Assembly (NCBI GenBank): GCA_028284235.1
Contig: JANQSC010000004.1
Span: 1 to 45,293 of the forward strand
Source of the DNA: Opitutaceae bacterium
Lineage (GTDB): Bacteria > Verrucomicrobiota > Verrucomicrobiia > Opitutales > Opitutaceae
DNA length: 45,293 bases
Direction of reading: 5' to 3'
This document shows, piece after piece, positions 17,143-42,339 of this stretch. Each line of letters starts with the position of its first letter. Positions within the stretch are counted from its first letter, which is position 1. The notes beneath the pieces were generated by a model. That model was given only the letters and a program-made list of their open reading frames with translations, was not told where the DNA came from and did not search any database. The position numbers and the translations under genes were made by a program.

Positions 17143-17311
17143 AACAGGATACGTCCCGCTTGGCGCATAAACGTCAACTTATCAATTGTCTCAACTGAGA
17201 AAACGCGCCGGGACGTCGCGTTCCACCCTAGACGCAAGTGGAATAAGGTGGAACCCGCCGTCCCGGCGGGTTTAAGTCGACGCGTATTCGCTTAAAGGGT
17301 CGTATCCTGTT
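17143..17311. repeat. Palindromic element with AACAG/CTGTT ends (copy between pfkB-type kinase and IMP cyclohydrolase)
   Basis: Perfect 11-bp terminal inverted repeats AACAGGATACG (17143-17153) and CGTATCCTGTT (17301-17311) bracket a chain of hairpins: GTCCCG...CGGGAC, GTTCCACC...GGTGGAAC, CCCGCCG-tcc-CGGCGGG and TTAAG...CTTAA. It fills the gap between two convergent genes. Nine A residues follow on the plus strand, directly before the stop of the minus-strand gene. See also 24231-24447 and 42163-42339. Confidence 0.75.
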
Positions 17312-17320
17312 AAAAAAAAA

Positions 17321-18055
17321 CTACACGTACTTGTTTCTCAGTACGATTCGCGAGGCGCTTCCATCCAGGCTGATTTCTTTGACCGCCAGGGAGATTCCGT
17401 TGTCCTCGTCCAAAGCGTTCCAATACAAATCGAGCGTTTCCTCCACCGTCGCCTCGATCGGGAGCAGGAGCGGATCGCCCACGAATGTCGGAAGCGGATC
17501 GCCGTCGCCCATGTAGGTGGTCAGGCCATACCCGAGACCGCTTAGCGGCGCCGACGGATAAAAGTAATGGCGATCCGTCAGCTCCGGATCGATCTTGTTG
17601 GCCTTGAGAATGCTCAACCCGATTTCTGGCGCGGAACCACTCAAATCAAGCATCGCGGTAATTCGCGGCGTGTAGTTCGGCGCGTCCGGCTCGCGTTCCC
17701 GCGATTTCAGCGACGCCCGCATGCTCTGGCCTTGCTCCAATCCGTCGTGAAGCGTCCGTGTCTGGTCGCCGTTGCTCACCAGGAAAACGCGCTTCGTCTC
17801 CAGCATCGCTTCGTAAATGATCAACGATGGATCCTCCACCTTCGACGCGTCGAACGGCTGCGTCTCCAGTGTCCCGCCATTCGCGGCGAACTGCCGATTC
17901 CGGCTGTTCGGGCTTCGGCCCATGATGAAGTACACTTGTTGCCAGCTCGAACCGTCGCTCGACTTCCCAAGTACCAATCCGCGACCTGGATACGGATTCG
18001 CGCCAATGTGATTCTTCAAGGTGCTCGCGGCAATTTCGACGGGACTCATAGACAC
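17321..18055 (-). CDS. IMP cyclohydrolase, PurO-like family
   Basis: A 244-residue protein of the PurO-like IMP cyclohydrolase family (PF07826), which closes FAICAR to IMP in the last step of purine synthesis. In most bacteria PurH does this. Family signs are NPYPGRGLVLGKSSDG and the core VYFIMGRSPNSRNRQF near the N-terminus, followed by YTPRITAMLDL, typical of the bacterial members. The likely start is ATG 18055 (MSMSP). It lies 91 bases downstream of the GltD-like gene on the same strand, so it may be transcribed from the sulfur operon, though no pathway link is obvious. Whether the organism also has a bifunctional PurH cannot be seen. Confidence 0.82.
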   Translation of the reverse strand: MSMSPVEIAASTLKNHIGANPYPGRGLVLGKSSDGSSWQQVYFIMGRSPNSRNRQFAANGGTLETQPFDASKVEDPSLIIYEAMLETKRVFLVSNGDQTRTLHDGLEQGQSMRASLKSREREPDAPNYTPRITAMLDLSGSAPEIGLSILKANKIDPELTDRHYFYPSAPLSGLGYGLTTYMGDGDPLPTFVGDPLLLPIEATVEETLDLYWNALDEDNGISLAVKEISLDGSASRIVLRNKYV

Positions 18056-18146
18056 GAAGCCTTGCTGCCTCCGTATCTCGAATCAACGAAAATTATCCCG
18101 CTCGCGCCTTTGGCAGCGAACAATCCAGCGTTGGGCATTCGACCGC

Positions 18147-20036
18147 CTAGTACTTCGAATGGGCAACCGTGCCGTAGGCTTGGTTCGACAGTTTTTTCTC
18201 TTCGTACTCTTCGGTCGAGCAACCGCAGAGCTCCGTCTTGCGCATCGTAATCGCGCTCGTCGGGCAAATCCGCAGGCACTTGCCGCAGCGAATACACTCC
18301 TTGCTGTCGATCCAAATATAGGTCGCCTCGTGGTTGAGATCGGTTTCCAAGCTGGTCTCGACATAGTCGTCCTCGTCGTAGAACAGCCGGGAGACTTTGT
18401 TGATACAATCGCGCGGCGTCACTTCGATACACCAGTTGCAGTGGATACACTTGTCGTGGTCGATCTCGAACTTGTTCTGGCACCAGTAGCACCGAGTCGC
18501 GTGCACTTGCAGAGCTTCCAAGTCATGGCCAAGCTCGACTTCCGCCACTCCGTCGCGCTGCCCCAAAGGCAAAGTCGGCATCACCGGCGGCAGTTGTAAA
18601 TCGTGGTCCCGCACGCGCCCGGTTTCGCCATTGACCTGTGTCATCTCGATGCCGATGTGCTTTTGACGACGCTTGCGCCCCATCAGGGACGTATCGATTT
18701 TTTCGGCGGCGTCTTTTCCGTCCTGCACCGCAGTAATAACGTCGAGGCTTCCGTAGTTAAAATCTCCCGACATGAAGACTTTATCGTGCGTCGTTGTATG
18801 TCCGTCCTCGCTCTGGTGAACGCCTTCCGGCAAAATGCTCAAAGTCCGGGTCTGGCCGATGGCCACGATCAGCAAATCGCAAGGAAACTCTTCCTCGGTC
18901 CCTTCGATCGCGTGAACGCGGGGCTTGCCACCCTCGTTTTTGGCGTCCTCGAGCGAATTGCGCTGAAAAGTCACTCCCACGAGTTTGCCGTTCTCCACGC
19001 GGGCCGAATGCGGATTCATGAGCGTTTCGATGTGGATGTTTTCCACGCCCATCTCTTCGATCTCGTCGTACTTGGCCGCCATTTGACCGGCGGTCCGGCG
19101 ATACATCATAGTGACCGTTCCTTCCTCCCCGACCAAGCGCAGAGCAGCCCGAGCGCAGGAACGTGCGCAGTCGACCGCGGTAAACCCGCCGCCCACGATG
19201 ATCACGTTCTGGCCCTTCATGGAGCCATCCTCGATGTCCCCCATGTTGTAGTCGTGCATGAACTTCAATCCAGACACGGCGTGGCCGTCGTCCGGCAGGC
19301 CCGGAAGTTTCAAATTGGAAGCATGGACCGTTCCCACTGACACCAGCACGGAATCGTACTCGTCGATGATAGTTTGCATCATCTCCGCATCCACCGAAGT
19401 ATTCAGTTTTACATCTATCCCGCTATCGATGATCGCCTTGATCTCCTGGGCGACCGTTTCACGCGGGAGGCGGAAGATCGGAATCCCCTGGACCATCATA
19501 CCGCCCAAAACGCTGTCACGCTCGAAAATCGTCACGCTGTGACCATAGCGACGCAATTCACGCGCCGCGGTCAAACCGGACGGACCGCCGCCGATGACAG
19601 CCACACGTTTTCCGGTATCCTCGAACCAGCCCGGAAGTGGCTTGGGCTCGCTCGTCTTGAAATCCGAGGCGCCGCGCTTCAGATGGCATATGTGAACCGG
19701 GCCGTTGATGTCGGTCCAGTTGTGACGGCAGCCATCCTCGCAGGGACGGGAGCAAACGCGGCCCAAAACGCCCGAAAACACGTTGTCCTCCTGATTGATC
19801 AAGTAGGCCTTGTCGGGATCGCCTTCCGCCAGAGCTTGGATGTAGTGCGGCACGCGCGTCTTCGCCGGGCAGGCTTCCTGGCAGGGAATGTCCTTGGCGT
19901 AGCTCTTGAAGTCGAGCGGCTCCGCGCCCACACCCGTAAAAGTGGAGTACTCCTGATCGATGGGAGCCATATCGTACTCGATATTCAGCCCCTTAACCGC
20001 GTCCAGAAACGGACCTAGCGTCTTGTCTTCATTCAT
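18147..20036 (-). CDS. GltD-like NAD(P)H-dependent iron-sulfur flavoprotein, probable electron donor for sulfite reductase
   Basis: A 629-residue oxidoreductase. The N-terminus has the cysteine pattern of dihydropyrimidine dehydrogenase domain I/GltD (CQEACPAKTRVPHYI and GRVCSRPCEDGCRH), which binds iron-sulfur clusters. An FAD-binding Rossmann fold (VAVIGGGPSGLTAARELRRY) and an NAD(P)-binding fold (NVIIVGGGFTAVDCARSCAR) follow, then a C-terminal ferredoxin part: CYWC, CIHCNWC and CIRCGKCLRICP. It thus combines an NAD(P)H dehydrogenase with its own ferredoxin. The start is ATG 20036, which overlaps the sulfite reductase stop in ATGA; an ATG at 20063 is less likely. The coupling to the siroheme enzyme and to cysK suggests that it feeds electrons to sulfite reductase. 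This is inference from context; glutamate synthase large subunit is absent. Confidence 0.85.
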   Translation of the reverse strand: MNEDKTLGPFLDAVKGLNIEYDMAPIDQEYSTFTGVGAEPLDFKSYAKDIPCQEACPAKTRVPHYIQALAEGDPDKAYLINQEDNVFSGVLGRVCSRPCEDGCRHNWTDINGPVHICHLKRGASDFKTSEPKPLPGWFEDTGKRVAVIGGGPSGLTAARELRRYGHSVTIFERDSVLGGMMVQGIPIFRLPRETVAQEIKAIIDSGIDVKLNTSVDAEMMQTIIDEYDSVLVSVGTVHASNLKLPGLPDDGHAVSGLKFMHDYNMGDIEDGSMKGQNVIIVGGGFTAVDCARSCARAALRLVGEEGTVTMMYRRTAGQMAAKYDEIEEMGVENIHIETLMNPHSARVENGKLVGVTFQRNSLEDAKNEGGKPRVHAIEGTEEEFPCDLLIVAIGQTRTLSILPEGVHQSEDGHTTTHDKVFMSGDFNYGSLDVITAVQDGKDAAEKIDTSLMGRKRRQKHIGIEMTQVNGETGRVRDHDLQLPPVMPTLPLGQRDGVAEVELGHDLEALQVHATRCYWCQNKFEIDHDKCIHCNWCIEVTPRDCINKVSRLFYDEDDYVETSLETDLNHEATYIWIDSKECIRCGKCLRICPTSAITMRKTELCGCSTEEYEEKKLSNQAYGTVAHSKY

Positions 20037-21598
20037 TGCTCTACCCCCAAACGGTTCACGCACTGCGCCAGCGTCTCGTCGCCTTGCCGCTCTTTCAAAA
20101 ATGTATCCAAGATCGTCTCGACCACCCTCGGGCAGTCCTCCGTCTTGTATTCCCCCAGGACGCGGCCGAGCCGGTCGTGCTCCCCGCCAATTCGAATCTC
20201 GTAGGCTTCAACCGAGCCCACTTGCTCCCGGATCCGCATGCCGCGAAATCCGATATCGGCGATCCGGTAAGGCGAGCAGCTATTCGGGCAGCCGGTGATA
20301 TTGATGTACGCTTTGTCCCAAATTTCCGAATACTTAGTTTGCTTAACGACTGGATGAAGGACGTCGAACAACGCTCTCGTTTCCGTAACCGCCTTCGGGC
20401 AGTAGGTCGACCCCACGCAGGCCACAATATCCTGGAGACCGAAAAAGCCTTCCGTCGCGAAACCCGCTTGCTTGATCAACTCGGAAAGCGCTTCCACTTT
20501 GTCCGGCTTCACTCCGTGGATCTCCACGTTCTGACGCTGGGTGAAAAACAGACGTTTGTCCCCGAACTCCTCGGTGAGCTGGGCCAGTCGCTTCATTTGC
20601 GGGTGCGTCAATTCCCCTTTCGGAACCATCACGCGAACAGTCACCAAGCCATCCGTTCCGACCGGATTCGGTTCGAGCATGGGGCGATCGGGATAAGGGA
20701 CGCCACGGTCTTCAACGGTATCCGTCATAATGATACCATCGAGACTCACACCTTCCTTTTCGAGGAAATCAACGACGATCTTGCGACAAAAATCGATCCC
20801 CTTTTTCTCGACGACGAACTTCAGACGCGACTGCGTGCGATCGCGGCGGTCCCCGTGGTCGCGGAAAAGCAGGGCGATGGCGCGATTGACTCGAGTGATC
20901 CGATCCGGCGGGACAAAGGCGAACAACTCCTTCCCGATGAACGCCTCCCAGCCCATTCCGCCGCCAATCACGACCTTGAATCCCGTTTCCTCTTCGCCCG
21001 CCTCGTTGGCGCGCGTGACGGCGATCACGCCGATGCAATTGATAAAGGGCTGTCCGCAACCGGCCCCGCATCCGGAGAAATTGATCTTAAACTTGCGCGG
21101 CAAGTTGTCCAAGTCCCGCATCGCCGTGATCTCCCGAGCCGTCTCCTTGACGTAGGGAAGCACGTTGATCCGCTTGTACTGGCACGTCTCCGCCAGCGGG
21201 CAGGCCACCACGTTGCGAGCGACGTCGCCGCAACCGTGGAAGCAGCTCAAATTGTCCTTGGCCAAATCTCGCAGCATGTCGGCCAAGGCCGGCGCTTTGA
21301 GCCAGTGGAACTGGATGCACTGGCGTGTCGTGATTGATATCTTCCCCTGGCCGTAGTCTTCCGCTACCTGCACGATGCGACGGGCTTGGCTGGAGGTGAC
21401 CACGCCGCCGGGAATGACCACGCGGGCCATGTGCGCGCCCGGATGGCGCGAGCCATAAATTCCGTACCACTTGGACAGCAGTTTTTCACCGCCGCCCAAG
21501 GCGCCTTTGCGAGCGACCTCGTCAAAGTCGAGCGTCAGACCATTGTCCTTGATCTGCTCTTCTTCGCTTACGTGTCTCTTGTCGAGTCTCCACTGCAT
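20033..21598 (-). CDS. Siroheme nitrite/sulfite reductase, ferredoxin type
   Basis: A 521-residue enzyme with the twofold nitrite/sulfite reductase architecture. The half domains carry RQCIQFHW and RQNVEIHG (siroheme anion-binding regions). The 4Fe-4S/siroheme ligands are C-x5-C in CVGSTYCPKA and C-x3-C in TGCPNSCSP. Extra cysteines occur in the first half (HGCGDVARNVVACPLAETC and GCGAGCGQP). These enzymes reduce sulfite to sulfide or nitrite to ammonium with six electrons. Position between cysK and the flavoprotein argues for sulfite. An AGGAAAGGAA ribosome-binding site precedes the start. Its stop overlaps the next start, so the reductase and its likely donor are made together. Confidence 0.9.
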   Translation of the reverse strand: MQWRLDKRHVSEEEQIKDNGLTLDFDEVARKGALGGGEKLLSKWYGIYGSRHPGAHMARVVIPGGVVTSSQARRIVQVAEDYGQGKISITTRQCIQFHWLKAPALADMLRDLAKDNLSCFHGCGDVARNVVACPLAETCQYKRINVLPYVKETAREITAMRDLDNLPRKFKINFSGCGAGCGQPFINCIGVIAVTRANEAGEEETGFKVVIGGGMGWEAFIGKELFAFVPPDRITRVNRAIALLFRDHGDRRDRTQSRLKFVVEKKGIDFCRKIVVDFLEKEGVSLDGIIMTDTVEDRGVPYPDRPMLEPNPVGTDGLVTVRVMVPKGELTHPQMKRLAQLTEEFGDKRLFFTQRQNVEIHGVKPDKVEALSELIKQAGFATEGFFGLQDIVACVGSTYCPKAVTETRALFDVLHPVVKQTKYSEIWDKAYINITGCPNSCSPYRIADIGFRGMRIREQVGSVEAYEIRIGGEHDRLGRVLGEYKTEDCPRVVETILDTFLKERQGDETLAQCVNRLGVEQ

Positions 21599-21667
21599 AG
21601 TCTAAAGTTCCTTTCCTGCGTCAACGGGCGCGCTGCCAATGCGCTTTCAATTCGCTCCTGCTCCGGA

Positions 21668-22594
21668 TCAGTCTTGATAAAAGAGGAGGGTTGAAACGTA
21701 GCGCTCTCCGGTGTCCGGCTGCATGACCACGATGTTCTTGCCTTCGTTCTCGGGCCGCGCCGCGACCTGCTTCGCCGCCAGCGCCGCCGCGCCTGATGAA
21801 ATTCCCGCAATTAGCCCTTCCTTCTTCCCGAGCTCTTTGCTGGTCCGAATTGCCGCCTGGCTCTCGATCTGAATAATCTCGTCGACGACATTCCCGTCGT
21901 AGGCGCCCGGAACGAATCCGGCCCCAATCCCTTGGATCATGTGAGGGCCCATTTCGCCGCCACTCAAGACAGGCGACTCTTCCGGCTCGACAGCGATTAC
22001 CTGGATGTCCGGCTTTTGTTCTTTGAGGAACTTCCCCGTGCCGGAGACCGTGCCTCCCGTCCCCACTCCGGCGATGAAAATGTCCACTTCCCCGTCGAGG
22101 TCGCGCCAGATTTCCGGGCCTGTCGTGTCGTAGTGGACCTGGGGATTGGCCGGATTCTCGAACTGCTTGGGCATAAACGAGCCTTTGATCTTCTCATTCA
22201 GCATCTCCGCCTCGGCGATCGCCCCCGGCATCCCGAGGTGGCCATCCGTCAAAACGAGCTCCGCCCCGAGATTGATCAACAGCTTGCGACGCTCGACGCT
22301 CATGGACGACGGCATGGTCAGAATGATCTTGTATCCCTTGACCGCTGCGGCAATCGCCAGGCCGATTCCGGTGTTGCCCGAGGTCGGCTCGATTATCGTG
22401 CCGCCCTCTTTCAGCTCCCCATCCCGCTCGGCCGCCTCGATCATCGCTTTGCCGATCCGGTCCTTGACGCTCCAACCCGGATTGTAGCCTTCGAGCTTGC
22501 CAATGATGTTGCCCGGCAAGCCCGCCCCGAACTTGTCCAAACGAACAAGAGACGAGTTGCCGATCATATCGCACAAATTGTTGAAAATCGCCAT
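21668..22594 (-). CDS. cysK: Cysteine synthase A
   Basis: A 308-residue PLP enzyme that makes cysteine from O-acetylserine and sulfide. The PLP lysine lies in NPGWSVKDRIGKAMI, the substrate loop is TSGNTGIGLAIAAA, and the phosphate-binding glycine loop is GVGTGGTVSGTGKFL. Length and motifs match CysK/CysM O-acetylserine sulfhydrylases. It is the first gene of the minus-strand sulfur set; sulfite reductase starts 69 bases downstream. The upstream leader can form alternative hairpins (22634-22666), which may be regulatory. Confidence 0.95.
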   Translation of the reverse strand: MAIFNNLCDMIGNSSLVRLDKFGAGLPGNIIGKLEGYNPGWSVKDRIGKAMIEAAERDGELKEGGTIIEPTSGNTGIGLAIAAAVKGYKIILTMPSSMSVERRKLLINLGAELVLTDGHLGMPGAIAEAEMLNEKIKGSFMPKQFENPANPQVHYDTTGPEIWRDLDGEVDIFIAGVGTGGTVSGTGKFLKEQKPDIQVIAVEPEESPVLSGGEMGPHMIQGIGAGFVPGAYDGNVVDEIIQIESQAAIRTSKELGKKEGLIAGISSGAAALAAKQVAARPENEGKNIVVMQPDTGERYVSTLLFYQD

Positions 22595-22633
22595 GTCAGG
22601 AAACGCTTTGGGAACGCGACCCGCCAGAATAGG

Positions 22634-22666
22634 GGGCTCATTCCGCAGAGCCCACTCAAAATGGGC
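22634..22666 (-). promoter_or_regulatory. Possible alternative hairpins in the cysK leader
   Basis: GGGCTC (22634-22639) pairs with GAGCCC (22648-22653). The latter, extended to GAGCCCA, can instead pair with TGGGC (22662-22666) and nearby bases. The two stems exclude each other, the layout of an attenuator or sensor leader, about 40 bases upstream of cysK. I do not recognise a known riboswitch class. Confidence 0.25.
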
Positions 22667-22836
22667 CCGCTCCCCCCAAGAGCAAGGAGAATCCAGCAGT
22701 CTCCCGCGTCATATAACGACCACGCGTTCACCCTATTAGACGGGCGTATCGAAGGGCAACGGGTTCAAGCGCCCGATTCCGCATCTCCTGAACTCGCAAA
22801 ACCACCCATTCGCTCCTCTGCCCATAAGGCGTTGAC

Positions 22837-24198
22837 ATGGAATTTGCCCAATCCATCAATGGCTCCGATAGCGCTGCTATCCAGGCCGGCATGAACTGCG
22901 AGATTCTCGATATCCTTTACATTCGCTCCAATGGCGAAATCCCGTGCAACTGCTCTTTTGGAGAGCAGGTGAACCTCGACTGGGCTAAGTCAGACGCGGA
23001 CTGGGACATCGACAAGGTCTTCTACAACAGTCGCTTCCAGCACATCCGCGACTCGTTCAAAAACGGCGAGATGCCCTGGAAAGAGTGCGCCGACTGCGCC
23101 TTCCTCAACAAGGACGAGCCCGTTCGCGACCTCATCTCCCAAAAGCGGATCACCAAGGTCCATCTCGAACCATCGCTCGCCTGCAAACTGCGCTGCCCCG
23201 GCTGCAGTCGCGTCGATCAGGCGAAAACCCGCCTCTCGCCCTTCTTCATGGAGCCCGCGATCTGGGAGCGCGTCCTCTCCAGCCTCTCCGAAAAAGGCTA
23301 CTCGGTGGACCTCTTCTTCTACTGCGGCCAAGGCGAGCCCATCAACAACCCGAAGTTCAACGAGCTCGTCCAGATCACCAACAAGTATTTCCCCGACACC
23401 GAGCAGGCCGTGAATACGAACGGGAACCACGACTACCCGTCCACGATCGGTCGCTTGGGCAAAGACCGCCCCGACCTCTTCATCGTGTCTATCGACGGGC
23501 TCTACCAGGAAAGCTACGAGAAGTACCGCGTGCGCGGCAACGTCGAGCAAGCCCTCAAGTTCATGGAGGACGCCAAGTCGCCCGACAACCCCCACCCGCC
23601 CGTTGTCGAGTGGAAGTACATCCTTTTCAAATACAACGACAGCGACGAGGAGATCATCGGCGCCCAGAGGAAAGCGCTCGAGCTCGGAGTCGACCGTATC
23701 CAATTCGTTCTCACGCACACACCCGAAAAGTCGCGCAAGTACACCGTCGAGAACTACCACGAACTACCGATTATCTCCGACATCGCCTACGCCCAAACGA
23801 CGGTGCAAGGACTGTCGCACTCGATCCGAGGCGAACAAAAAAGCGCTCAGCCTCAGGAAATCGCTCCCAATGCGAACGCGAATATCCGAGTCGCCAACTT
23901 CTTCTTCATGAAGTCGGGGCTCATGTCCATCTACGGATTCGTCTCCAACAACGCGACCACCGCAGCGGACCGGGTTTCCCTCGAGCTCAACGGCGACCCT
24001 ATCGGGGAAATCGAAATCGATCCCGAATCGAAAAAAACGGACAACTTCTTTTCCTTGGCAACTCAGCGTCCCTTCGACGGCGAGCGCCATAAAAACTTGC
24101 GCGTCCGACTCCACGCAAATGGGCAGGAGCTCGCTTATTCAGATTTTCAATACGAGTTTACCGACGAAGCCAATAGCCGCAACGTCAACCCGTATTGA
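22837..24198 (+). CDS. Radical SAM protein with N-terminal SPASM-like cysteines
   Basis: A 453-residue protein. The radical SAM cluster motif is C116-x3-C120-x2-C123 (ACKLRCPGCSR). Downstream signs are the FFYCGQGEPINNP (GxxE-like) and TNGN strands and VSIDGLYQESYEKYR. Unusually, a SPASM-like set of cysteines (C21, C37, C39, C84, C87, within YIRSNGEIPCNCSFGE and ECADCAF) lies before the radical SAM domain, whereas SPASM normally follows it. The last ~110 residues form a separate predicted beta domain (VSLELNGDPIGEIEID). The substrate is unknown; members of this type often occur near surface polysaccharide genes, but here it stands alone, divergent from cysK. The start is ATG 22837. Confidence 0.75.
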   Translation: MEFAQSINGSDSAAIQAGMNCEILDILYIRSNGEIPCNCSFGEQVNLDWAKSDADWDIDKVFYNSRFQHIRDSFKNGEMPWKECADCAFLNKDEPVRDLISQKRITKVHLEPSLACKLRCPGCSRVDQAKTRLSPFFMEPAIWERVLSSLSEKGYSVDLFFYCGQGEPINNPKFNELVQITNKYFPDTEQAVNTNGNHDYPSTIGRLGKDRPDLFIVSIDGLYQESYEKYRVRGNVEQALKFMEDAKSPDNPHPPVVEWKYILFKYNDSDEEIIGAQRKALELGVDRIQFVLTHTPEKSRKYTVENYHELPIISDIAYAQTTVQGLSHSIRGEQKSAQPQEIAPNANANIRVANFFFMKSGLMSIYGFVSNNATTAADRVSLELNGDPIGEIEIDPESKKTDNFFSLATQRPFDGERHKNLRVRLHANGQELAYSDFQYEFTDEANSRNVNPY

Positions 24199-24230
24199 GG
24201 CGTTCGAAGGCGAGGAAACAGGATTTGTTT

Positions 24231-24447
24231 TAACAGGATGCGTTCGTCCCGCTGGGCCCCGACGATGTCGGGGTCTTCGACGGGACTCTCTCATTTGATC
24301 CCGTCCCCACGAGCGGGACAGGAACTTGATGAATCAAGGTCCTTGTAGTCAAAACGCTCCCCTTCTTTTATATAGCAAAGCCATCAAGTTCCCGCGCCAG
24401 CGGGATCAAGCGAGTGAACCCGTTTCACGGGTGAACGCATCCTGTTA
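24231..24447. repeat. Palindromic element with AACAG/CTGTT ends (copy between radical SAM gene and ahcY)
   Basis: Perfect 15-bp terminal inverted repeats TAACAGGATGCGTTC (24231-24245) and GAACGCATCCTGTTA (24433-24447). Inside are nested hairpins: TCCCG...CGGGA enclosing CCCCGAC-gat-GTCGGGG, GAACTTGATG...CATCAAGTTC, and ACCCGT-ttc-ACGGGT. It occupies most of the 376-base gap between two convergent genes; no gene is seen there. Confidence 0.8.
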
Positions 24448-24513
24448 GAAAAACTACTTGTTGCACTTCCAACGCGGCGCGGCACAAGCGCTGGCCCACA
24501 GATTGTCCCGGAA

Positions 24514-24545
24514 ACAAAAAAGACCCGCCTCGAAAAGCAGGTCTT
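24514..24545 (-). terminator. Rho-independent terminator of metK-ahcY
   Basis: On the minus strand AAAGACCTGC pairs with GCGGGTCTTT around an 8-base loop, with one mismatch, and is followed by TTTTGTTT. It lies 30 bases after the ahcY stop, a textbook intrinsic terminator. Confidence 0.85.
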
Positions 24546-24574
24546 TGAAATTGGTTTTTCGTCGAAGTCGACTT

Positions 24575-26005
24575 TTAGTACCGGTAGTGGCTCGGCTTGT
24601 ACGGGCCTTCCACTTTGACGCCGATGTAGTCGGCCTGCTCGGGGGTGAGCGTGGTCAGCTTCACGCCGATCTTCTCCAAATGGAGGCGGGCCACTTCCTC
24701 GTCCAGGACCTTTGAGAGCAGGTAAACACCCGGCTCGTAGGTCTCTTTGTTTCGCCACAAGTCGATCTGGGCCAAGGTCTGGTTGGCGAAGGAATTCGAC
24801 ATCACGAACGACGGGTGGCCCGTCGCGCAGCCGAGATTGACCAAGCGGCCTTTGGCGAGCATGTAGATGCTGTTGCCACTCGGGAACGTGTACTTGTCCA
24901 CGGCTCCTTGCGACTCGTCCTTGATCACCTCGATCTCGATTCCGTCGTAGGCATTGAGCTTGTCGATCTGGATCTCGTTGTCGAAGTGGCCGATGTTGCA
25001 GACGATGGCCTGGTCTTTCATCTTCTCCATGTGCTCCACGCGGATGATGTCCTTGTTGCCGGTCGTGGTGACATAGATGTCCGCCCGGCCCAGCGTGTCC
25101 TCGACCGGGCACACCTCGAAGCCTTCCATCGACGCTTGCAAGGCGCAGATCGGGTCGATCTCGGTGACAATTACGCGAGCGCCCATTCCAACCAGCGCCT
25201 GGGCGCAGCCCTTGCCCACGTCGCCGTATCCACATACGACCGCCACTTTGCCGCCCGTCATGACGTCGGTCGCGCGCTTGATTCCATCGACGAGCGACTC
25301 GCGACAGCCGTATAGATTGTCGAACTTCGACTTGGTCACGGAGTCGTTCACGTTGATCGCCGGCACGAGCAGCTTGCCTTCCTCCATCATTTGGTAGAGG
25401 CGGTGCACGCCAGTCGTCGTCTCCTCGGAAACGCCTTTCCATTCTTTAACGACATTGGCCCAGCGAGTTGGATTCTCCGCGTGGATCGACTTGAGGAGGT
25501 TTTTGATCACCTGCTCTTCTTCCGACCCTGAATCCGTATCCACCCAGTCACTACCCTGCTCCAGCTCGACGCCTTTGTGAATCAAGAGCGTGGCGTCACC
25601 ACCATCATCGACAATCAACTGAGGTCCGAGACCGCCCGGGAATGCCAGGGCTTGGTCGGTGCACCACCAGTACTCTTCCAGCGTTTCGCCCTTCCAAGCG
25701 AATACCGGGACGCCCGCCTTGGCGATGGCCGCCGCCGCGTGGTCCTGGGTCGAGTAAATATTGCAGCTGACCCAGCGAACATCCGCGCCCAGCTCCACCA
25801 AGGTCTCGATGAGAACCGCGGTCTGAATGGTCATATGGAGCGAGCCCATAATACGCACGCCCTGCAGCGGCTTTTCCGCCGCGTACTTTTTGCGAATCGC
25901 CATCAAGCCGGGCATCTCGTGCTCGGCGATGTTGATCTCCTTGCGGCCAAAGTCCGCCAGCGAGATATCCGCAACCTTGTAATCGAGTGTTTGTGTATCG
26001 CTCAT
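24575..26005 (-). CDS. ahcY: S-adenosylhomocysteine hydrolase
   Basis: A 476-residue NAD-dependent enzyme that splits S-adenosylhomocysteine into adenosine and homocysteine, relieving product inhibition of methyltransferases. It has the substrate region [19 protein letters not shown], the conserved [26 protein letters not shown], the NAD-binding fold [17 protein letters not shown] and the C-terminal [10 protein letters not shown]. The length includes the ~40-residue insertion typical of many bacterial enzymes. It follows metK after nine bases. Together they complete the methyl cycle except for methionine synthase. Confidence 0.97.
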
Positions 26006-26014
26006 TTGAGTACT

Positions 26015-27196: not shown

Positions 27197-27222
27197 GTGT
27201 GTCTTGCTTTCTATCGAGAGAC

Positions 27223-33230: not shown

Positions 33231-33261
33231 AAAAAAGGCCGCCTCGACATTCGAGACGGCC
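33231..33261 (-). terminator. Rho-independent terminator of tRNA-Asp
   Basis: On the minus strand GGCCGTCTCGA pairs with TCGAGGCGGCC around a 3-base loop, followed by TTTTTT. It begins eight bases past the tRNA CCA end. Confidence 0.9.
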
Positions 33262-33268
33262 AAAAAAG

Positions 33269-33345: not shown

Positions 33346-33365
33346 GTGAAGATAAGAGGTCGCTG

Positions 33366-33393
33366 AAATTAGGTTTCGACCTACCCAAGTCAA
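33366..33393 (-). promoter_or_regulatory. Sigma-70-type promoter of tRNA-Asp
   Basis: On the minus strand TTGACT (33388-33393) and TAATTT (33366-33371) are separated by 16 bases, and the -10 lies 20 bases before the tRNA 5' end. Confidence 0.65.
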
Positions 33394-33538
33394 GCGCCGT
33401 TTTGGAAAATCCGGCGAAAAAAGAACGCCCGTTTTTGCCCGAATTCCCGTCGGGACGTCCGTCACCTACATCGAGAGCGAAATCGCCCCTTCCCGATTTG
33501 ACCCGAACGCGATTGTTCTAGATAAGGGAATCCAGCCT

Positions 33539-34072: not shown

Positions 34073-34836
34073 GAAGCGGCGCGGGCCGAAGCAATCAGAT
34101 CGCAGAACGACTTGCCGTCGAGCGACGCGCCGCCAATCAAACCGCCGTCGATGTCCTTCTGCCCCAGCAGTTCGTTCGCGTTTGCGGGCTTCATCGAGCC
34201 GCCGTAGAGGATTCTCACCTTCTCCGCAACCGACGCGCCGTACTTCTCGGTCAACAGAGCCCGAATCGAAGCGTGCACTTCCTGAGCCATTTCCGGCGTC
34301 GCAGTCTTTCCGGTGCCGATCGCCCAGACCGGCTCGTAGGCGATCACCACGCTGCCCATGCTGCTGGCTTCGACGCCTTCGAGGCCGCCCAGCAACTGGG
34401 TTTTCACGACTTCCAGAGTTTCGCCCGCTTCCCGCTGCTCGAGGGTTTCACCGATGCACAGAATCGGGCTGAGCAGATTCTCCAACGAGAACTTCACCTT
34501 CTCGTTCACGAACGCGTCGCTCTCGCCAAAATACTCCCGACGCTCGCTGTGGCCGAGGATGACGTACTTGGCGAAAACCGCCCGCAGCATCTCCGGAGAC
34601 GCTTCGCCCGTGTAGGCGCCGCTGGTCTTCGGATACAGGTTTTGGGCTCCCAGCTTGACCGCCGATCCTTCGATCGCCTGGGACACGCGGTCCAGCGCGA
34701 CGAACGAGGGGCAGACGACCACGTCCACGGAAGCGTCTTTCGAAACCATCGACGCGATCTCGGACGCGAGTTCCTTCCCCTCCTCCGGGGTCTTGTTCAT
34801 TTTCCAGTTTCCGGCGATAAAATATTTTCTGCTCAT
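34069..34836 (-). CDS. tpiA: Triosephosphate isomerase
   Basis: A 255-residue TIM that interconverts dihydroxyacetone phosphate and glyceraldehyde 3-phosphate. Catalytic residues are N10 and K12 (GNWKMN), H96 (LGHSERREYFGESD) and E168 (AYEPVWAIGTG). The phosphate-binding ILYGGSMKPANANEL and GGLIGGASL are present. It is third in the gap-pgk-tpiA set, 50 bases after pgk. Confidence 0.98.
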   Translation of the reverse strand: MSRKYFIAGNWKMNKTPEEGKELASEIASMVSKDASVDVVVCPSFVALDRVSQAIEGSAVKLGAQNLYPKTSGAYTGEASPEMLRAVFAKYVILGHSERREYFGESDAFVNEKVKFSLENLLSPILCIGETLEQREAGETLEVVKTQLLGGLEGVEASSMGSVVIAYEPVWAIGTGKTATPEMAQEVHASIRALLTEKYGASVAEKVRILYGGSMKPANANELLGQKDIDGGLIGGASLDGKSFCDLIASARAAS

Positions 34837-34886
34837 GTATCTAGTAGTTCAGGGTGTCTCGTTAAGCGTTGAAAGATAGGCGGACG

Positions 34887-36089
34887 CTACTTGTTCTCAA
34901 GCGCTTCCACGCCCGGAAGGGCCTTGCCCTCGAGAAATTCCAGACTGGCGCCGCCGCCGGTGCTGATGAAGGAAACCTCGCCGCCAAACCCAGCTTGGTT
35001 CACGGCCTTGACCGAGTCGCCGCCGCCGATGATGGAAATCGCGCTCTTGTTCTTGGCCACTGCTTCGGCGATCGCGAATGAGCCTTTGCTGCACGCTTCG
35101 ATCTCGAAAATCCCCATCGGCCCGTTCATGAGAATCGTCTTGGCCCCCGCGAGCTCCTCCGCGTAGAGAGCCGCGGTCTTCGGTCCAATGTCGACGCCTT
35201 CCCAGCCGTCCGGGATGTTGCCGTCAGGATCGCTTACACCCACATTGCCGACGCTCATCGTGTCAAAGTCCAGCGAGTCTACGGTGACGTTGTCCACTGG
35301 CAACAGGAACTTCACGCCCTTCGCTTCCGCCTTCTGCATCGCCGCTTTAGCCGTGTCGATAAACTTGGGCTCGGCCAAACTGTCGCCGACGGTTTTGCCA
35401 TTTGCCAGCGCAAAGGTGTAGGCCATCGCTCCGCCAATGAGAATTGTATCCGCTTTTTCGAGCAGGCGGTCGATCACCGTGATCTTGTCGCTCACCTTGG
35501 CGCCGCCGAGGATGACCACGAACGGGCTTTCCGCGTTTTCTGTTTTCTCGCCCAAATATTCTAGCTCTCTTTGTATCAAGAAACCGGCTACCGCTGGCTT
35601 CAAGTACTCCGCGATTCCCGCAGTGGAAGCGTGAGCCCGGTGGGCGGTGCCAAACGCGTCGTTAATATAAACGTCGCCCAGCTTGGCGAAATCCTGGGCC
35701 AGCTCAGGATCGTTTTTCTCTTCGCCCGCATGGAAGCGAACATTCTCGAGCAAAGCCACAGACCCTGGCGAAAGCTCGGAAACCGCTTTCTCCGCCGCTT
35801 CGCCGCGCGATTCCGGCACAAATACGACCGGCTGGCCCAACTCGGCGGCCAAGGCCTTCGCCACGGGAGCGAGCGAGAATTTCGGATTCGCCTCGCCTTT
35901 CGGGCGACCCAAGTGGCTGAGCAAGATCGCCGTGCCGCCTTGCTCCACGACGTGTTTGATCGTCGGGAGAGCGCCGTAGATACGGGTCTTGTCCGTGATC
36001 TCCCCGCCTTGGAGCGGCACGTTAAAATCCACGCGGATGACCGCTTTCTTCCCTTTTAGGTCTATGTCTTCAATCGTCTTTTTCGCCAT
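34887..36089 (-). CDS. pgk: Phosphoglycerate kinase
   Basis: A 400-residue kinase that transfers phosphate between 1,3-bisphosphoglycerate and ADP. It has VIRVDFNVPLQGGEITD near the start, the substrate arginine regions LLSHLGRPKG and LLENVRFHAGEE, VILGGAKVSDKI, and the C-terminal nucleotide site ISIIGGGDSVKAVN followed by FISTGGGASLEFLEG. ATG 36089 (MAKKTIEDIDLKGK) is chosen over an ATG three codons upstream (36098). A terminator-like hairpin separates it from gap, so it may also be transcribed on its own. Confidence 0.98.
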   Translation of the reverse strand: MAKKTIEDIDLKGKKAVIRVDFNVPLQGGEITDKTRIYGALPTIKHVVEQGGTAILLSHLGRPKGEANPKFSLAPVAKALAAELGQPVVFVPESRGEAAEKAVSELSPGSVALLENVRFHAGEEKNDPELAQDFAKLGDVYINDAFGTAHRAHASTAGIAEYLKPAVAGFLIQRELEYLGEKTENAESPFVVILGGAKVSDKITVIDRLLEKADTILIGGAMAYTFALANGKTVGDSLAEPKFIDTAKAAMQKAEAKGVKFLLPVDNVTVDSLDFDTMSVGNVGVSDPDGNIPDGWEGVDIGPKTAALYAEELAGAKTILMNGPMGIFEIEACSKGSFAIAEAVAKNKSAISIIGGGDSVKAVNQAGFGGEVSFISTGGGASLEFLEGKALPGVEALENK

Positions 36090-36210
36090 GGCGATCAATG
36101 GGCTCCAGGCCCGGAATAATAAGAGTGTCTTAGGTGAAGTTCAGGATTGGATGCGGCGGCTTGCAACGCGAGCGGCTCGTTCATCTCGTCTCCAGCCCCA
36201 CGGGGCCGTT

Positions 36211-36250
36211 GAAAAAAGAAAGCCCTTTGCCCGGGAAGCCCAGACAAAGG
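36211..36250 (-). terminator. Rho-independent terminator between gap and pgk
   Basis: On the minus strand CCTTTG (complement of 36245-36250) pairs with CAAAGG (complement of 36224-36229), extended by an inner CTGGG/CCCGG stem, and is followed by CTTTCTTTTTTC. It starts 20 bases after the gap stop and could uncouple gap from pgk-tpiA. Confidence 0.75.
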
Positions 36251-36269
36251 ACCGAAATCTAAAGCGCGA

Positions 36270-37307
<1,038 letters not shown>

Positions 37308-37433
37308 TTACTGATTGACGTCGATGATTTGGATGATCCGTCACCCTGAATTTAGCCCCAGAGCTCTGGCGAAGCGGGAGTAGATGGCGCCCTTTCAATA
37401 AAATCAAGGGTTTAAAACGCGCCAATTTGATGT

Positions 37434-39869
37434 CTAATCCGCGGAGATCCAAAGCCCCGTTCCCAGGGGGGGAAGGAGCAATTCGTCGGTCAAATCCACC
37501 CGAAGCGGCTCGAGTTCCTCGCCCCAAAACCGGTCGTGATCCGCCAATTGCGTCCACGCGCCCGACCAATCCCCCAGCGACATCCGCAATGGTTCCGTCT
37601 CCGGATTCACTGCGAACAAGAGCTTGCGGGGGCCGCGACTGCCGTCCGCGTTGTAGAGCGCCGCGAGCGCGTTGCGCCCCTCTTGCTCGTCGAACTCGAA
37701 AAACCCGTCCGACGCTCGCGAGTAGTGGCGCAACAAACGGCCCGTTTCCGACATTCGGAACGCGATCCAGCCGCGGATGTAATCGCTGGAAAGAGCGAAC
37801 TCCGACCGCCGTCCATAGTCCAAGGCGTTCAAGTCCCCGCGTTGATAAGTGTTGTTCACCCCGCCCTTGGAAAAGAGAAAATCCTGGCCTGCATGGAGCA
37901 TGGGCATCCCGATCGACGCCATTAGCAGCGCCGCCATCATGTGCGTGCGGCGGATGTCGTTCAACGCGGGCAGCGTTCCGTCGAACTCGGGTTGCTCCGT
38001 AATCACGTCTATCCACACCCGATCGTCGTGAGACTCCGTGTAGTTGACCGTTTGAGACGGCCAGTCGGCATAGTCGTCGGGCGAGCCTTTCAGTAAATGG
38101 GAAAGCTGTCCGGAAGACAACTCGCCCTTCACATAGGATTTGATTCCTTCCCGGTATCCATCATTCCAAGACGCGTAACCGGTATCGATCAAATCCCTGC
38201 CAATATGGCCCCTGAAACTCCAGGGCTCGGCGATGAGGATAACATCGGGTTTCACCGCTTTGAGCTCCCGTTCGATCTCCTGCAACGCTGCTTTGCCCAC
38301 CAGGTCCGCCAGGTCGAATCGAAAGCCATCCACTCCGTAGAATAAAACCAAGTGTTTCAAGCTCTCGACAATGATTCGCCGGGCCATGGGCGCGTCGCAA
38401 CGCAAGTCGTTCCCGCAACCGCTCCAATTCGTCAACGCCCCGTCGCCTTCCACATGGAAGTAGTACAGCTTGTCGATGTACATTAAGTGAGCGGGCTCGC
38501 CCACGTGGTTGTAGACGACATCGAGAATGACCGCCATTCCACGTTGGTGAATACTGGATACAAGCGAGCGAAACTCCTCGATCTGCGACGCGTTCTGTGG
38601 GTCGCTGCCGTACTGCGACGCCGGAGCGAAAAAATTGGCGGTCATGTAGCCCCAGTGATATTCGCCGTAGGAGCGACTGTCGTTCTCCTGCACCGGCTGC
38701 AACTCCAGAGCGTTGATCCCCAAAGTGGCAGGGTAGAAATCCGGGCGATCGACGTAGGCCTGCAAGTCCGGAAAGCCCAGCGGACGGTCGAGTTCAGCGT
38801 TTTCGGGCAGGCCCGCCACTAGGTCTCGCGTGTGCGCTTCCAGAATCACTAAATCCTGCCATTGGGGAACCGGGTAATGATCCAGTGGCTCAAAGCGTTC
38901 CAAATCGACCACGACTCCGGGTCCTTCCCGGCCCAGAGCCGCCTTGGCGTAGGGATCCAGGATCTTGAAATTCGGGTCGAACACGCCGCACTCTCCGTCG
39001 GGGCCGTCCAGCCGGAACCAATAGCGGGCGCCGTCCAGGTTCTCCGAAATCGAAACCTCCCAGACGAAATCCTCCGACGGCTCCATATCGATCCATTCGA
39101 GGTCTGCCTCCATCTCGTCTTTGCCGAATACACCCACTTTGACCCACTCCGCTCTCGGAGCGAACAGCCGGAAAACCGTGCGGTCTCCCTCGACTATGGC
39201 GCCCAGCGCCTTGTCCGATTTCAGCTGTAGAAAGAACGGTCCGGGATCCAGGCGAGTCCGATGCTCGTGGATTCGACTATGGTAAATGAGCGTGTGGTTT
39301 TTCGCCAAGTCGAGCGGCTCTTCCAGCGCGAACCGAAACCGGTGCCGCCCGCTCCGGGCCGCGGCGAAAACGTAGTTGCAGTTCCCGAGGTCGTCCATGA
39401 CCGAGTTCGGCGCCTCCGCGTCGACCGGCAGCCAATGGTGGTCCCCCGTCACGAACTTGAACGGAACTGTACGGGCGATATCCACGGCCTCCAGCGGCAC
39501 GCGCAAGACCAGGGCCCGCTTGCCCTCGATCGTTTCCAGCGACATTCGCCACTGCTCCTCTCCAACCGCCTCTTGCCAGCCGTTGAATGCGCCTGCAACG
39601 TAGACCGTGTCCGAGTCTGGATCGATCCAATCGAACTCCTCCAGATCGAGGACGAATACGCCAAGCCCGCTTCCGTCGACAAAGTAGCGGCTCTCACTCG
39701 CAAAGTCGCTTGCAGGCAGCGGCTCCAGAACGAGATAGCCCCCGAACTCCCCCTCCAAACTAATGCGAGGCGGACGCAACGCCCGCCAGTCGTGGCTCAA
39801 TTCGACAACGCCTTCGGAAGGCGAAGCGAGGAACGCGCGCGCAATTCGATGAGATTCGTGAGAGGACAT
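37434..39869 (-). CDS. Type I pullulanase-like alpha-glucan debranching enzyme (GH13)
   Basis: An 811-residue glycoside hydrolase. The N-terminal region has a carbohydrate-binding/CBM48-like part (VFRLFAPRAEWVKVGVFG, YWFRLDGPDGE). The GH13 barrel has region I VILDVVYNHVGEP, region II GFRFDLADL with nucleophile D519, region III LIAEPWSF with acid/base E548 and region IV ESHDDR with D615, plus the pullulanase/isoamylase-type YHWGYMTANFFAPASQYG. It lacks a signal peptide, so it probably acts on cytoplasmic glycogen or imported dextrins and releases linear chains for glycolysis. The gene lies upstream of gap on the same strand. GlgX-type debranching is an alternative. Confidence 0.87.
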   Translation of the reverse strand: MSSHESHRIARAFLASPSEGVVELSHDWRALRPPRISLEGEFGGYLVLEPLPASDFASESRYFVDGSGLGVFVLDLEEFDWIDPDSDTVYVAGAFNGWQEAVGEEQWRMSLETIEGKRALVLRVPLEAVDIARTVPFKFVTGDHHWLPVDAEAPNSVMDDLGNCNYVFAAARSGRHRFRFALEEPLDLAKNHTLIYHSRIHEHRTRLDPGPFFLQLKSDKALGAIVEGDRTVFRLFAPRAEWVKVGVFGKDEMEADLEWIDMEPSEDFVWEVSISENLDGARYWFRLDGPDGECGVFDPNFKILDPYAKAALGREGPGVVVDLERFEPLDHYPVPQWQDLVILEAHTRDLVAGLPENAELDRPLGFPDLQAYVDRPDFYPATLGINALELQPVQENDSRSYGEYHWGYMTANFFAPASQYGSDPQNASQIEEFRSLVSSIHQRGMAVILDVVYNHVGEPAHLMYIDKLYYFHVEGDGALTNWSGCGNDLRCDAPMARRIIVESLKHLVLFYGVDGFRFDLADLVGKAALQEIERELKAVKPDVILIAEPWSFRGHIGRDLIDTGYASWNDGYREGIKSYVKGELSSGQLSHLLKGSPDDYADWPSQTVNYTESHDDRVWIDVITEQPEFDGTLPALNDIRRTHMMAALLMASIGMPMLHAGQDFLFSKGGVNNTYQRGDLNALDYGRRSEFALSSDYIRGWIAFRMSETGRLLRHYSRASDGFFEFDEQEGRNALAALYNADGSRGPRKLLFAVNPETEPLRMSLGDWSGAWTQLADHDRFWGEELEPLRVDLTDELLLPPLGTGLWISAD

Positions 39870-39993
39870 AAACCGCGGTCAAAAGAAAATCGCCAACAGC
39901 TCAACCGTATTTCCCCAGTCATTACAAGCCAGGAAGCGGTCTCGCGTTCGCTTGGGGCTCCCTGCGAACAGGAATTGAATCGCCCTTTTAACC

Positions 39994-40701
39994 TCAACGG
40001 CGCGCCAGCTGGTGAATTAAGTCGCCCGTGTGCTCCACCGTTTCGATAAATCGCTGGAACAGCGCCCGAGCATCGACCAGCTCCACGTCGATCTTGCCAT
40101 CCTTGAGCTCCTGGATCTCGTCGAACACCGACATCGAAAACGGGACGTGCGTGGCGAACCGACGCACCGCTTCGCGCTTGCGGACCGGCACGTTCACTTC
40201 GAAAAACCGGAGCGCCGCCCGAATCAAAATCTGGAAGGTCGACAGCGTTGCCACCATGAGCGAAGCGATTTCCGATTCCGACCCTTCCAGCAACAGGTAC
40301 CGCTCCCGCAGCTGGATCAGCTTGCCCTTCAACTCGTGCTCGAGCTGGAAACGGAGATTCGCCTGGCTGATCGGCAGGCGCTTCATCACATCCTCGCCCG
40401 CGAGAATCACGTGATTCTCCTTAATGTCCAACATCTCGATCGGAAACACGTCCGACGAGCTTTTCAACCGCTCCCAAGTGAACAACAAAGGCGGCGGATT
40501 CCCGAACTGGGCCCACCGCGTCGTCAACGGGCGTATCTTGTCCAGCTCCTCCAAGGACAACTCCACGCACACCACCAACAAGTTGAAGTCGGAATACTTC
40601 TCCGACCGCTCCCCAGTCGTCGCCGAGCCGTAGAGGATGACCGATACCAACGAGAAACCGAGCGCGTTCGATAGTTCGTCAGTAAATTCCTCCGGTGTCA
40701 T
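39994..40701 (-). CDS. Nucleotidyltransferase-fold protein
   Basis: A 235-residue protein with an N-terminal minimal-nucleotidyltransferase motif (VILYGSATTGERSEKYSDFN, then LLVV): G-S followed by D-x-N where active enzymes normally have D-x-D. The C-terminal half (residues ~125-235) is helical and HEPN-like in general appearance (ERYLLLEGSESEIASLMV, FQILIRAALRFFEVNVPVRK). A small MNT-type antitoxin is much shorter than this, so a toxin-antitoxin role is not supported. The substrate is unknown. It is divergent from the glycosyltransferase gene. Confidence 0.6.
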   Translation of the reverse strand: MTPEEFTDELSNALGFSLVSVILYGSATTGERSEKYSDFNLLVVCVELSLEELDKIRPLTTRWAQFGNPPPLLFTWERLKSSSDVFPIEMLDIKENHVILAGEDVMKRLPISQANLRFQLEHELKGKLIQLRERYLLLEGSESEIASLMVATLSTFQILIRAALRFFEVNVPVRKREAVRRFATHVPFSMSVFDEIQELKDGKIDVELVDARALFQRFIETVEHTGDLIHQLARR

Positions 40702-40850
40702 GAGTTCCTACCTCTTTCTACAACAAGCGACGCCAAAATACTAGCCCCGACTTCGCTCGCCTTGCCCCCTAGCGAATCAGCCATAACGCTTGCCACTCGT
40801 TCCCTCGCCCCCAAACCTTCGACTGACCGACGACCCGACGATTTTCGCGA

Positions 40851-42155
40851 ATGAACGAGCTGCCCAGAATCTCAATCGTGACACCCTCCTACAACCAGGG
40901 GGAATATCTGGCCGAAACCCTGCAAAGCCTCGTCGATCAAGACTACCCGAATCTCGAAGTCGTGATCCAGGACGGCGGCTCCACCGACGCGTCTATCGAA
41001 ATTGCCGAGCGCTTCGTTTCAAACCACCCAGACCTCTTCCAACTCACAGTCGAATCCGACGAAGGCCAGGCGGACGCGCTCGCTCGCGGATTCCGCAAAA
41101 CCACCGGCGAGATAATGGGCTTCCTGAATTCCGACGACTGGCTCGAAACTGGCTGCCTCCACAGCGTCGCCCGAGCCATCGATCCCGCTCGTGGACGCCA
41201 CGTCGTTTTCGGGCGCAGCCTCTTCTTCGGAAACGACCCCGGGAAAGAAGGCCGCGACCACCCGGCTCGATACACCAACCACTACCAGCAGCTCGCGATC
41301 TGGAACCGACAAGTCAACCAGATCCCGCAACCCTCCGCCTTCTGGCATCGAGAGGTCTGGGAGCGTTGCGGCGGGATCAACACCACAGTCAGCCACGCCA
41401 TCGACTACGATCTTTTCTGCCGTTTCAGCCAACGCTACCGATTTCACAAAGTCCCGGAAATCTGGAGCCATTACCGACTCCACGCCTCGTCCAAAACGTC
41501 AAACGTGAATCAATGGGATATCGTCGACGTCTGCATCGAAGTTAGCCGCCGGCACTGGGGTCCCTGGTACTCCCCGATTCGCTGGCGCTGCTTCCTTTCC
41601 CACGCAATGTACCGCCGCAGCCAGCGACCGCGAGCGATCGAAGTCGCCCGCAAAGCGGAAACCGCCCTGATCAAAGGTTCGCGAACCCCCGCGTTCTTTC
41701 TTGGTCTCCACGCCGCCTGGTCGGCGCCGCTCCTTTTCCGGCGACGCATTCTCTTCCCGATCGCAGCCACCCGCGGCTGGGGCCGGATCGCCCGCCATCT
41801 GAGAGAAGATTCCGTCGCCGAAATCTGTCCCAACTCCTGGATCGGCCCCTACTACGAAACCGAAGCGCCGACCGGTCCAGAAGACGAAACGCTCTTTCTC
41901 CAAATCGAAATACCCGATTGCTTCGATCCCGCGACCTACAGGAGCTTCCTATCAATCGACGGGCAACCGGTCGCTTCAAACCAACCGACAGACACCGCGA
42001 TTCGGACCTTCGAGGCCAAAATCCCGGAAACCAGACGCAACGCCATCCGTGTCACCCTCTGCGCCAACCGCTACTTCGTTCCCTCCATCGAAGGCGAGAG
42101 CGACGACAAACGCCTCCTCTCCGCCCGGCTGCTCAAACTGGAGACAAGGCCCTGA
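40851..42155 (+). CDS. Family 2 glycosyltransferase with C-terminal extension
   Basis: A 434-residue protein. Residues ~5-215 are a GT-A family 2 glycosyltransferase: ISIVTPSYNQGEYLAETLQS, VVIQDGGSTDASIE, SDEGQADALARGF, and the metal-binding FLNSDDWLETG. Inverting transfer to surface polysaccharides is usual for the family. The C-terminal ~110 residues (FLQIEIPDCFDPATYRSFLS...) look like a separate beta domain, and basic segments in between may touch the membrane. The acceptor is unknown. It has no neighbouring polysaccharide cluster. It is followed by a palindromic element. Confidence 0.85.
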   Translation: MNELPRISIVTPSYNQGEYLAETLQSLVDQDYPNLEVVIQDGGSTDASIEIAERFVSNHPDLFQLTVESDEGQADALARGFRKTTGEIMGFLNSDDWLETGCLHSVARAIDPARGRHVVFGRSLFFGNDPGKEGRDHPARYTNHYQQLAIWNRQVNQIPQPSAFWHREVWERCGGINTTVSHAIDYDLFCRFSQRYRFHKVPEIWSHYRLHASSKTSNVNQWDIVDVCIEVSRRHWGPWYSPIRWRCFLSHAMYRRSQRPRAIEVARKAETALIKGSRTPAFFLGLHAAWSAPLLFRRRILFPIAATRGWGRIARHLREDSVAEICPNSWIGPYYETEAPTGPEDETLFLQIEIPDCFDPATYRSFLSIDGQPVASNQPTDTAIRTFEAKIPETRRNAIRVTLCANRYFVPSIEGESDDKRLLSARLLKLETRP

Positions 42156-42162
42156 CGGACTT

Positions 42163-42339
42163 TTTTAACAGTCGCCTCCGGCGAAATGACGCTTCGCGTC
42201 ACAAGGATCCCACTAGCGTGGGACAAGGATTTTGGGTTCTCACAGAGACTCGTTGGAGAATCAAAAATCCTTGTGGCTCGGCAGAGCCATCCTGGTGACG
42301 CGCCAGCGTCATTTGATCTCGAAGAGATCACTGTTAAAA
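42163..42339. repeat. Palindromic element with AACAG/CTGTT ends (copy between glycosyltransferase and mnmA)
   Basis: Perfect 10-bp terminal repeats TTTTAACAGT (42163-42172) and ACTGTTAAAA (42330-42339). Inside lie CGCC-tc-CGGCG, TGACGC-ttc-GCGTCA, TCCCAC-tag-cGTGGGA, ACAAGGATTTT...AAAAATCCTTGT, GGCTC-ggca-GAGCC, TGACGC-gcca-GCGTCA and GATCTC-gaa-GAGATC. The halves also complement each other over long range. It is the third clear member of the family. Confidence 0.8.

Follow-up and report, generated by a model that had tools for sequence, protein, structure and literature searches.

Palindromic hairpin-ladder elements in an Opitutaceae genome and their association with GxxExxY genes

Palindromic elements in the window and across the genome

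The window (the whole stretch of DNA analysed, 45,293 nucleotides, which is contig C23 of a 6.13-Mb genome in 81 contigs, here G000) carries three intergenic elements that had been recognized in the initial annotation from their inverted repeats, AACAGGATACG at 17143-17311, TAACAGGATGCGTTC at 24231-24447, and TTTTAACAGT at 42163-42339. All three are real and correctly placed, and as single-stranded DNA each folds better than 200 of 200 dinucleotide shuffles (z of -8.8, -9.2, and -10.9 for elements 1, 2, and 3, respectively). No strand is assigned to any feature. Element 1 (17141..17313) has the ends of family A, (T)AAACAGGATACG / CGTATCCTGTTAA, but its interior departs from the usual ladder grammar described below. 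Element 2 (24230..24447) is a full ladder of family A, and element 3 (42163..42339) is a family B ladder with CAAGGAT clamps and the ends AACAGTCGCC + AACAGTGATCTC. A fourth ladder, element 4 at 4025..4280, had been missed. It belongs to a sister family with other ends (GGACATCGC / GCGATGTCC), which are identical to those of an element bearing a GxxExxY gene elsewhere in the genome (locus L282, G000:C38), and it is a gene-free relative of that element.

Two of the annotated elements lie between convergent genes, as had been noted (a pfkB-family kinase and an IMP cyclohydrolase-like gene at one, radical SAM and S-adenosylhomocysteine hydrolase genes at the other), and the third has tandem neighbours, a glycosyltransferase gene and mnmA. 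Rfam covariance models at gathering cut-offs gave only one tRNA in the window and no match at the elements. A terminator-like hairpin (24534..24562) adjoins element 2, outside the element itself, and is kept, by eye, in the sister genome G008.

Other repeats were also seen in the window. A sequence inside element 1 (17160-17200), CGTCAACTTA, is common to a 132-bp palindrome on contig C10 and is perhaps a remnant of another family. An inverted repeat of tandem short repeats of the TCTTACTCCTAATCCTAATC type lies at 1886-1965, with the same words on contig C80. A segment of ~135 bases occurs three times (4341-4473, 5614-5747, and from 6977 onward), all matching one place in G008; they appear to repeat part of the end of the 728-amino acid gene.

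BLAST searches of the own genome with element 2 returned 95 pieces at E ≤ 1. The end pattern TTAACAGGATNCG, with at most one mismatch, matched 140 times there compared with 15 for a reversed-pattern control, so that ~125 family A ends stand above control and the annotated family is indeed dispersed, well beyond three copies. A pattern of TTTAACAG with a gap of 10-40 bases gave zero matches because the true spacing is larger. A strict caller, run on 1.11 Mb of the own genome in stretches of which many had been picked for holding ends, identified 48 elements with a median length of 168.5, comprising 38 with A/A ends (AACAGGAT), 5 with B1/B2 ends (AACAGTCG / AACAGTGA), 3 A/B2, 1 B2/B2, and 1 A/B1. 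For the 47 that have a neighbour on each side, the gap is tandem in 28 cases, convergent in 15, and divergent in 4, compared with 64, 44, and 28 of the 136 gaps of at least 150 bases in the same stretches. Two of the 47 fall wholly within short, mechanically called ORFs (110 and 116 amino acids), and five share over 60 bases with an ORF. Across genomes, element 2 found BLAST matches at E ≤ 0.01 in 6 of 29, the own genome counted. When the end pattern was scanned across taxa, the matches listed were mostly single, chance-like, and in random taxa, with repeated matches in Opitutaceae/Opitutales records, OX638348.1 being one of them.

A separate set of 80-bp GTAGGGC...GCCCTAC palindromes was noted, with 17 pairs in 1.17 Mb of the own genome (e.g. 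L053 105-184 and L043 16021-16100), some of them sitting in the loops of ladder elements. These are probably GTAG-type REP dimers and make a better REP candidate than the ladder elements.

G008 is collinear with the window, and all three element sites are empty there, in intergenic DNA too diverged for base-exact junctions. At the mnmA site, occupied here by element 3, the element is absent by eye from all seven relatives that keep both neighbour genes, one of which, G005, has a different short palindrome in its place. The orthologous sites thus show the presence/absence pattern that the initial annotation had looked to, and its option of non-autonomous mobile elements is counted as right. At loci L272 and L263, which correspond in position between two species, the flanks are collinear and the gene-holding interior is inverted. 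A family A element of ~650 bp in G008 has further palindromic elements nested in its loop. No target-site duplication was found in the 48 elements, with z in the flank comparison staying within ~2.1 of shuffles at all lengths and offsets tried and a TTAA-type duplication being indistinguishable from the palindromic end. Direct repeats adjoining an element were rejected as such duplications. The elements very probably form a dispersed, mobile-looking DNA family, a conclusion that is well supported.

Ladder grammar and covariation

A typical arm consists of TTTTAACAGGAT(G/A)CG, a hairpin, a clamp (CTTGAT or ACAGGAT), a second hairpin, and another clamp, and the opposite arm is its mirror. This order of end motif, hairpins, and clamps fits 55 of 96 arms. 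Stems of at least five pairs are present in 30 of the 55 first hairpins (4 with shuffled letters) and 43 of the 55 second hairpins (2 with shuffled letters), with 16 and 21 distinct stem sequences, respectively. The covariation alignment held 25 arms out of the 27, from the 55 parsed, that passed a spacing filter blind to pairing. Two-sided changes occurred in all 10 pairs tested, amounting to 50 cells compared with 12.8 in shuffles, and none of 500 shuffles equalled this number. With the partner shifted by one column, 44-48% of the cells were paired instead of 90%. For the lateral hairpins, covariation bears out the earlier observation that structure is better conserved than sequence.

Among 239 hairpin pair cells, mispairs were G-T in 3 and A-C in 7; the 418 cells of the outer stems had 7 and 6, respectively. 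Because G-T does not exceed A-C, and RNA is expected to favour G-U, the constraint looks like one on DNA and not on RNA. The ladder structure looks like a DNA-level feature or the product of copying between arms.

Over 80 ends, the sequence upstream of AACAG is T-rich (0.85 at -2 and 0.71 at -3) and that downstream is A-rich, on both strands. An intrinsic terminator has a hairpin followed by a T-run; here, the T-run lies upstream and the A-rich side downstream on both strands. Integron attC core sites, which go with an integrase, have the form RYYYAAC ... GTTRRRY; the element ends agree with this in AAC/GTT and the pyrimidines, with a purine at -4 in only ~36%.

GxxExxY genes and their flanking repeats

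A 550-bp family A element on contig C2 of G000 (21251-21800, locus L272) has a 123-amino acid ORF in its innermost loop that belongs to the GxxExxY family (TIGR04256, 138.5 bits with a cut-off of 35; PF13366, PDDEXK_3, 137.4 bits with a cut-off of 22). PF13366 matches were found in 10 of 11 same-genus genomes, 6 of them in G000, and TIGR04256 in 66 of 80 genomes of the bacterial family. Both are protein models, whereas here the genes with or within ladders, which match far above cut-off, are tied to palindromic elements. This link was missed in the initial annotation and is new relative to it.

Hairpin ladders accompany nine same-genus GxxExxY loci. The gene lies in the loop of a single ladder at L272 (G000), L263 (G008), and L282 (G000:C38), and between two whole direct-repeat ladders of 96-152 bp and 76-99% identity at L262, L278, L279, L284, L273, and L280, some of which have a third copy nearby. 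At L284, the whole elements flanking the gene (1686-1832 and 2273-2419) share 99.3% identity over 147 bp, suggesting a recent duplication. In G000, one gene-bearing family A copy was seen versus dozens of gene-free ones. A search of the 48 solitary elements gave no GxxExxY relics at E < 0.05, which speaks against simple internal deletion.

Flanks were compared for 54 GxxExxY loci selected on profile score, without regard to structure (one more was excluded because its flank was short). Flanking inverted repeats of at least 10 bp were present at 33 of these compared with 3 of 60 control ORFs (Mann-Whitney p 1.6e-12), and of at least 9 at 44 compared with 13, the controls coming from G000 and G008 only and the GxxExxY loci from many genomes. 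Flank folding z was below -4 at 20 loci and 3 controls, a rough value based on 12 shuffles per locus. Among all 55 loci, direct repeats of at least 40 were found in 11 and inverted repeats of at least 20 in 30. Ladder-labelled loci had a mean of 4.7 hairpins and the others 0.96, which conveys what the label means and is no independent test, the label having been set by eye before trees were built.

Many of the GxxExxY genes are found in simple repeats at common locations (atp operon, leuB-alaS-like sites) and seem to have been inherited vertically. At L253 and L271 (G000 C44 and G008), the gene lies in a simple palindrome between apparent atp genes, a location common to the two species; at L283, L285, L259, L255, and L256, it lies in simple iteron repeats at apparently one shared pre-alaS site in several species.

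Outside the lineage, 22 of the 29 phylum-wide loci encoding the nearest proteins have inverted repeats of at least 10, often with tandem ACAGGAT, the same word as at the family A end, and a single one, L353, has at least three hairpins. Our own expectation of ladders at the nearest proteins of other classes therefore half failed, with repeats present and hairpins at L353 alone. This combination suggests that the repeat ends are general and that hairpins were added between them locally.

Ladder copy number follows the ladder protein clade. The nine ladder-associated proteins form one clade among 48 sequences (support 99/95) and remain a single clade among 61 once L353, which comes from a different genus, joins them (95/84; 94% of bootstrap trees). 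Matches to the R1 arm model, the top one genome-wide being the right arm of element 2 (24383-24447), number 101 in G000, 38 in G008, and 12 in G007, all three of which hold the clade. The eight same-genus genomes without it have 6, 5, 3, 2, 2, 2, 0, and 0, the few arms in G004 (6) and G001 (5) thus occurring despite its absence; at most 150 candidates were scored per genome, and clade presence was assigned by best match with small fragments left unplaced. A scan of 61 family genomes with stricter filters matched only in G000 and in G032, which carries L353, with five hairpins in its flanks.

Across 48 GxxExxY sequences, D66, K78, Q90, and Y94 do not vary, and E76 is almost invariant. The resulting motif, D66, E76-x-K78, and Q90-x3-Y94, corresponds to the D, ExK, and QxxxY of PD-(D/E)XK nucleases. 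The best PDB fold matches to the predicted model (pLDDT 94.5) were 4ic1 (SSO0001), which we take to be a Cas4 protein, LHK-Exo, lambda exonuclease, and MGME1, and three fold matches reach E ≤ 0.001; by sequence, the PDB gave nothing better than E 0.056. On modelled fold and residues, the GxxExxY protein is a predicted small nuclease of the Cas4/RecB/lambda-exonuclease type. It shares with those enzymes the nearest solved folds and the D, ExK, and QxxxY residues but differs in having 123 residues in a single domain, with a TM-score to the query of ~0.5-0.6. In the portions of the literature covered, with subscription journals and preprints outside its scope, GxxExxY is mentioned in passing, with no role and no link to palindromic elements. 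Searches with the end-motif strings gave only unrelated work, and those on nucleases and MITEs, Cas4-like proteins and inverted repeats, and palindromes of Verrucomicrobia did not turn up the system.

Proposed origin and spread of the elements

We propose that the elements in the gaps are solitary copies, without coding capacity, of palindromic hairpin ladders, the gene-bearing forms of which carry the GxxExxY nuclease, and regard this reading, with the mechanism that follows, as evenly balanced between right and wrong. The folded ends would be what the nuclease recognizes; it would cut at ends or targets, and repair would copy elements into new intergenic places. The hairpins are probably single-stranded DNA or cruciforms that set the short clamp repeats side by side. 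Solitary copies would either be moved in trans or be left after direct-repeat recombination, like solo LTRs. Given the direct repeats, the gene could be lost with one copy left behind, which would fit the absent gene relics. In favour of this reading are the dispersal and the empty orthologous sites, the arms shared with copies that have the gene in the loop, the direct-repeat ladders, the flank comparison, the single protein clade and the copy number that goes with it, the nuclease residues and fold, the DNA-level pairing, and the inverted and nested elements. Against it count the lack of a target-site duplication and of gene relics, the one gene-bearing family A copy in G000, the restriction of the hairpins to one lineage, the GxxExxY genes that seem vertically inherited, and the few R1 arms in genomes without the clade. 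That the elements belong with the GxxExxY nuclease elements is fairly supported; the solitary ones are read as non-autonomous relatives, which the nuclease would move.

Like MITEs, the elements are short, non-coding, and present in many copies, with terminal inverted repeats and empty sites. They differ from MITEs in having no detected target-site duplication and no matching transposase and in their hairpins between terminal clamp repeats. MITEs have ends in common with an autonomous transposon; the ladder elements share theirs with a copy bearing a nuclease gene, whose product is not a known transposase. REP/REPIN sequences with TIRYT, of which GTAG repeats are reported to be abundant in Opitutus terrae (PMC3733652), are likewise intergenic palindromes in the same bacterial group. 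REP/REPIN hairpins measure 20-40 bp, bear a GTAG or CGTC tag, and go with a RAYT; the ladder elements are much longer, lack a GTAG/CGTC tag (ends TTTTAACAG), and have no paired ends at the Y1 loci examined (12 of 30). The 23S rRNA intervening sequences with an S23p ORF (PMC4990558) also combine a small ORF with a folded selfish element but lie in rRNA and are excised as RNA by RNase III, whereas the ladder elements are intergenic. Mitochondrial GC clusters (PMC4478555) are palindromic, modular, nested, and sporadic as well but belong to organelle DNA, whereas the ladder elements are linked to a nuclease gene. The initial annotation had placed the elements with neither REP/BIME nor ordinary terminators, and the missing GTAG/CGTC tag and the T-run upstream of the ends agree with this.

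A MITE-like nature of the elements, with movement by some other enzyme (such as a Y1/RAYT-type or DDE transposase) and GxxExxY as captured or nearby-inserted cargo, is unlikely. Such an enzyme would suit the terminal inverted repeats, the empty sites, the solitary elements without gene relics, and the six of nine ladder genes that lie between elements and not inside one. Y1 enzymes use hairpins of such kind, and Y1 genes are present in 8 of 11 same-genus genomes. However, at the 12 loci examined of 30 Y1 matches, the AACAGGAT motif was found in 2 and paired in none, G000 has just three matches, all weak, and it is the GxxExxY clade and copy number that track the ladders. With no end pair at the loci examined and weak matches in G000, Y1 transposases were rejected as the first-choice partner.

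An action as RNA, as bidirectional multi-hairpin terminators or mRNA decay barriers 3' of genes, is distinctly improbable, and the transcription or decay barrier offered in the initial annotation does not stand as the main reading. The strong folding, the many elements close behind stop codons, and the few divergent gaps (4/47 versus 28/136) would fit it, but wobble pairs are not in excess, the T-run lies, on both strands, opposite to where a terminator has it, the orthologous gaps of working genes have no element, and beside element 2 stands a separate terminator-like hairpin conserved in the sister genome. Growth and upkeep of perfect palindromes by replication template switching, with spread by recombination between repeats and no mobility enzyme, is very improbable, for although quasi-palindrome correction, the mechanism behind it, fits the near-perfect, wobble-free pairing, the nested and modular build, and the arrays, the conserved end motifs and the clean empty sites, scattered over unrelated places, call for a step that recognizes its site, and the link to the GxxExxY clade is left unexplained.

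Taking the nuclease as the agent of spread, the elements may, more tentatively and with rather less than an even chance, represent a new class of mobile DNA, found in Verrucomicrobiota and possibly in other phyla, whose minimal unit would be a single Cas4/RecB-like GxxExxY nuclease gene with palindromic iteron ends. One lineage would then have gained hairpins between the iterons, and the folded element would have turned into a repeat, duplicated around the gene and spread as solitary copies, partly in the manner of repeat duplication in CRISPR arrays or of solo LTRs.

As naturally occurring DNA hairpins that covary, the ladders lend themselves to studies of cruciforms in cells. With flanking repeats tied to GxxExxY genes, the folded ends become a concrete candidate substrate for the predicted nuclease. 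If it is true that a Cas4-like nuclease spreads the elements, this would be a simple single-gene system with a fold close to that of the nuclease that prepares CRISPR spacers.
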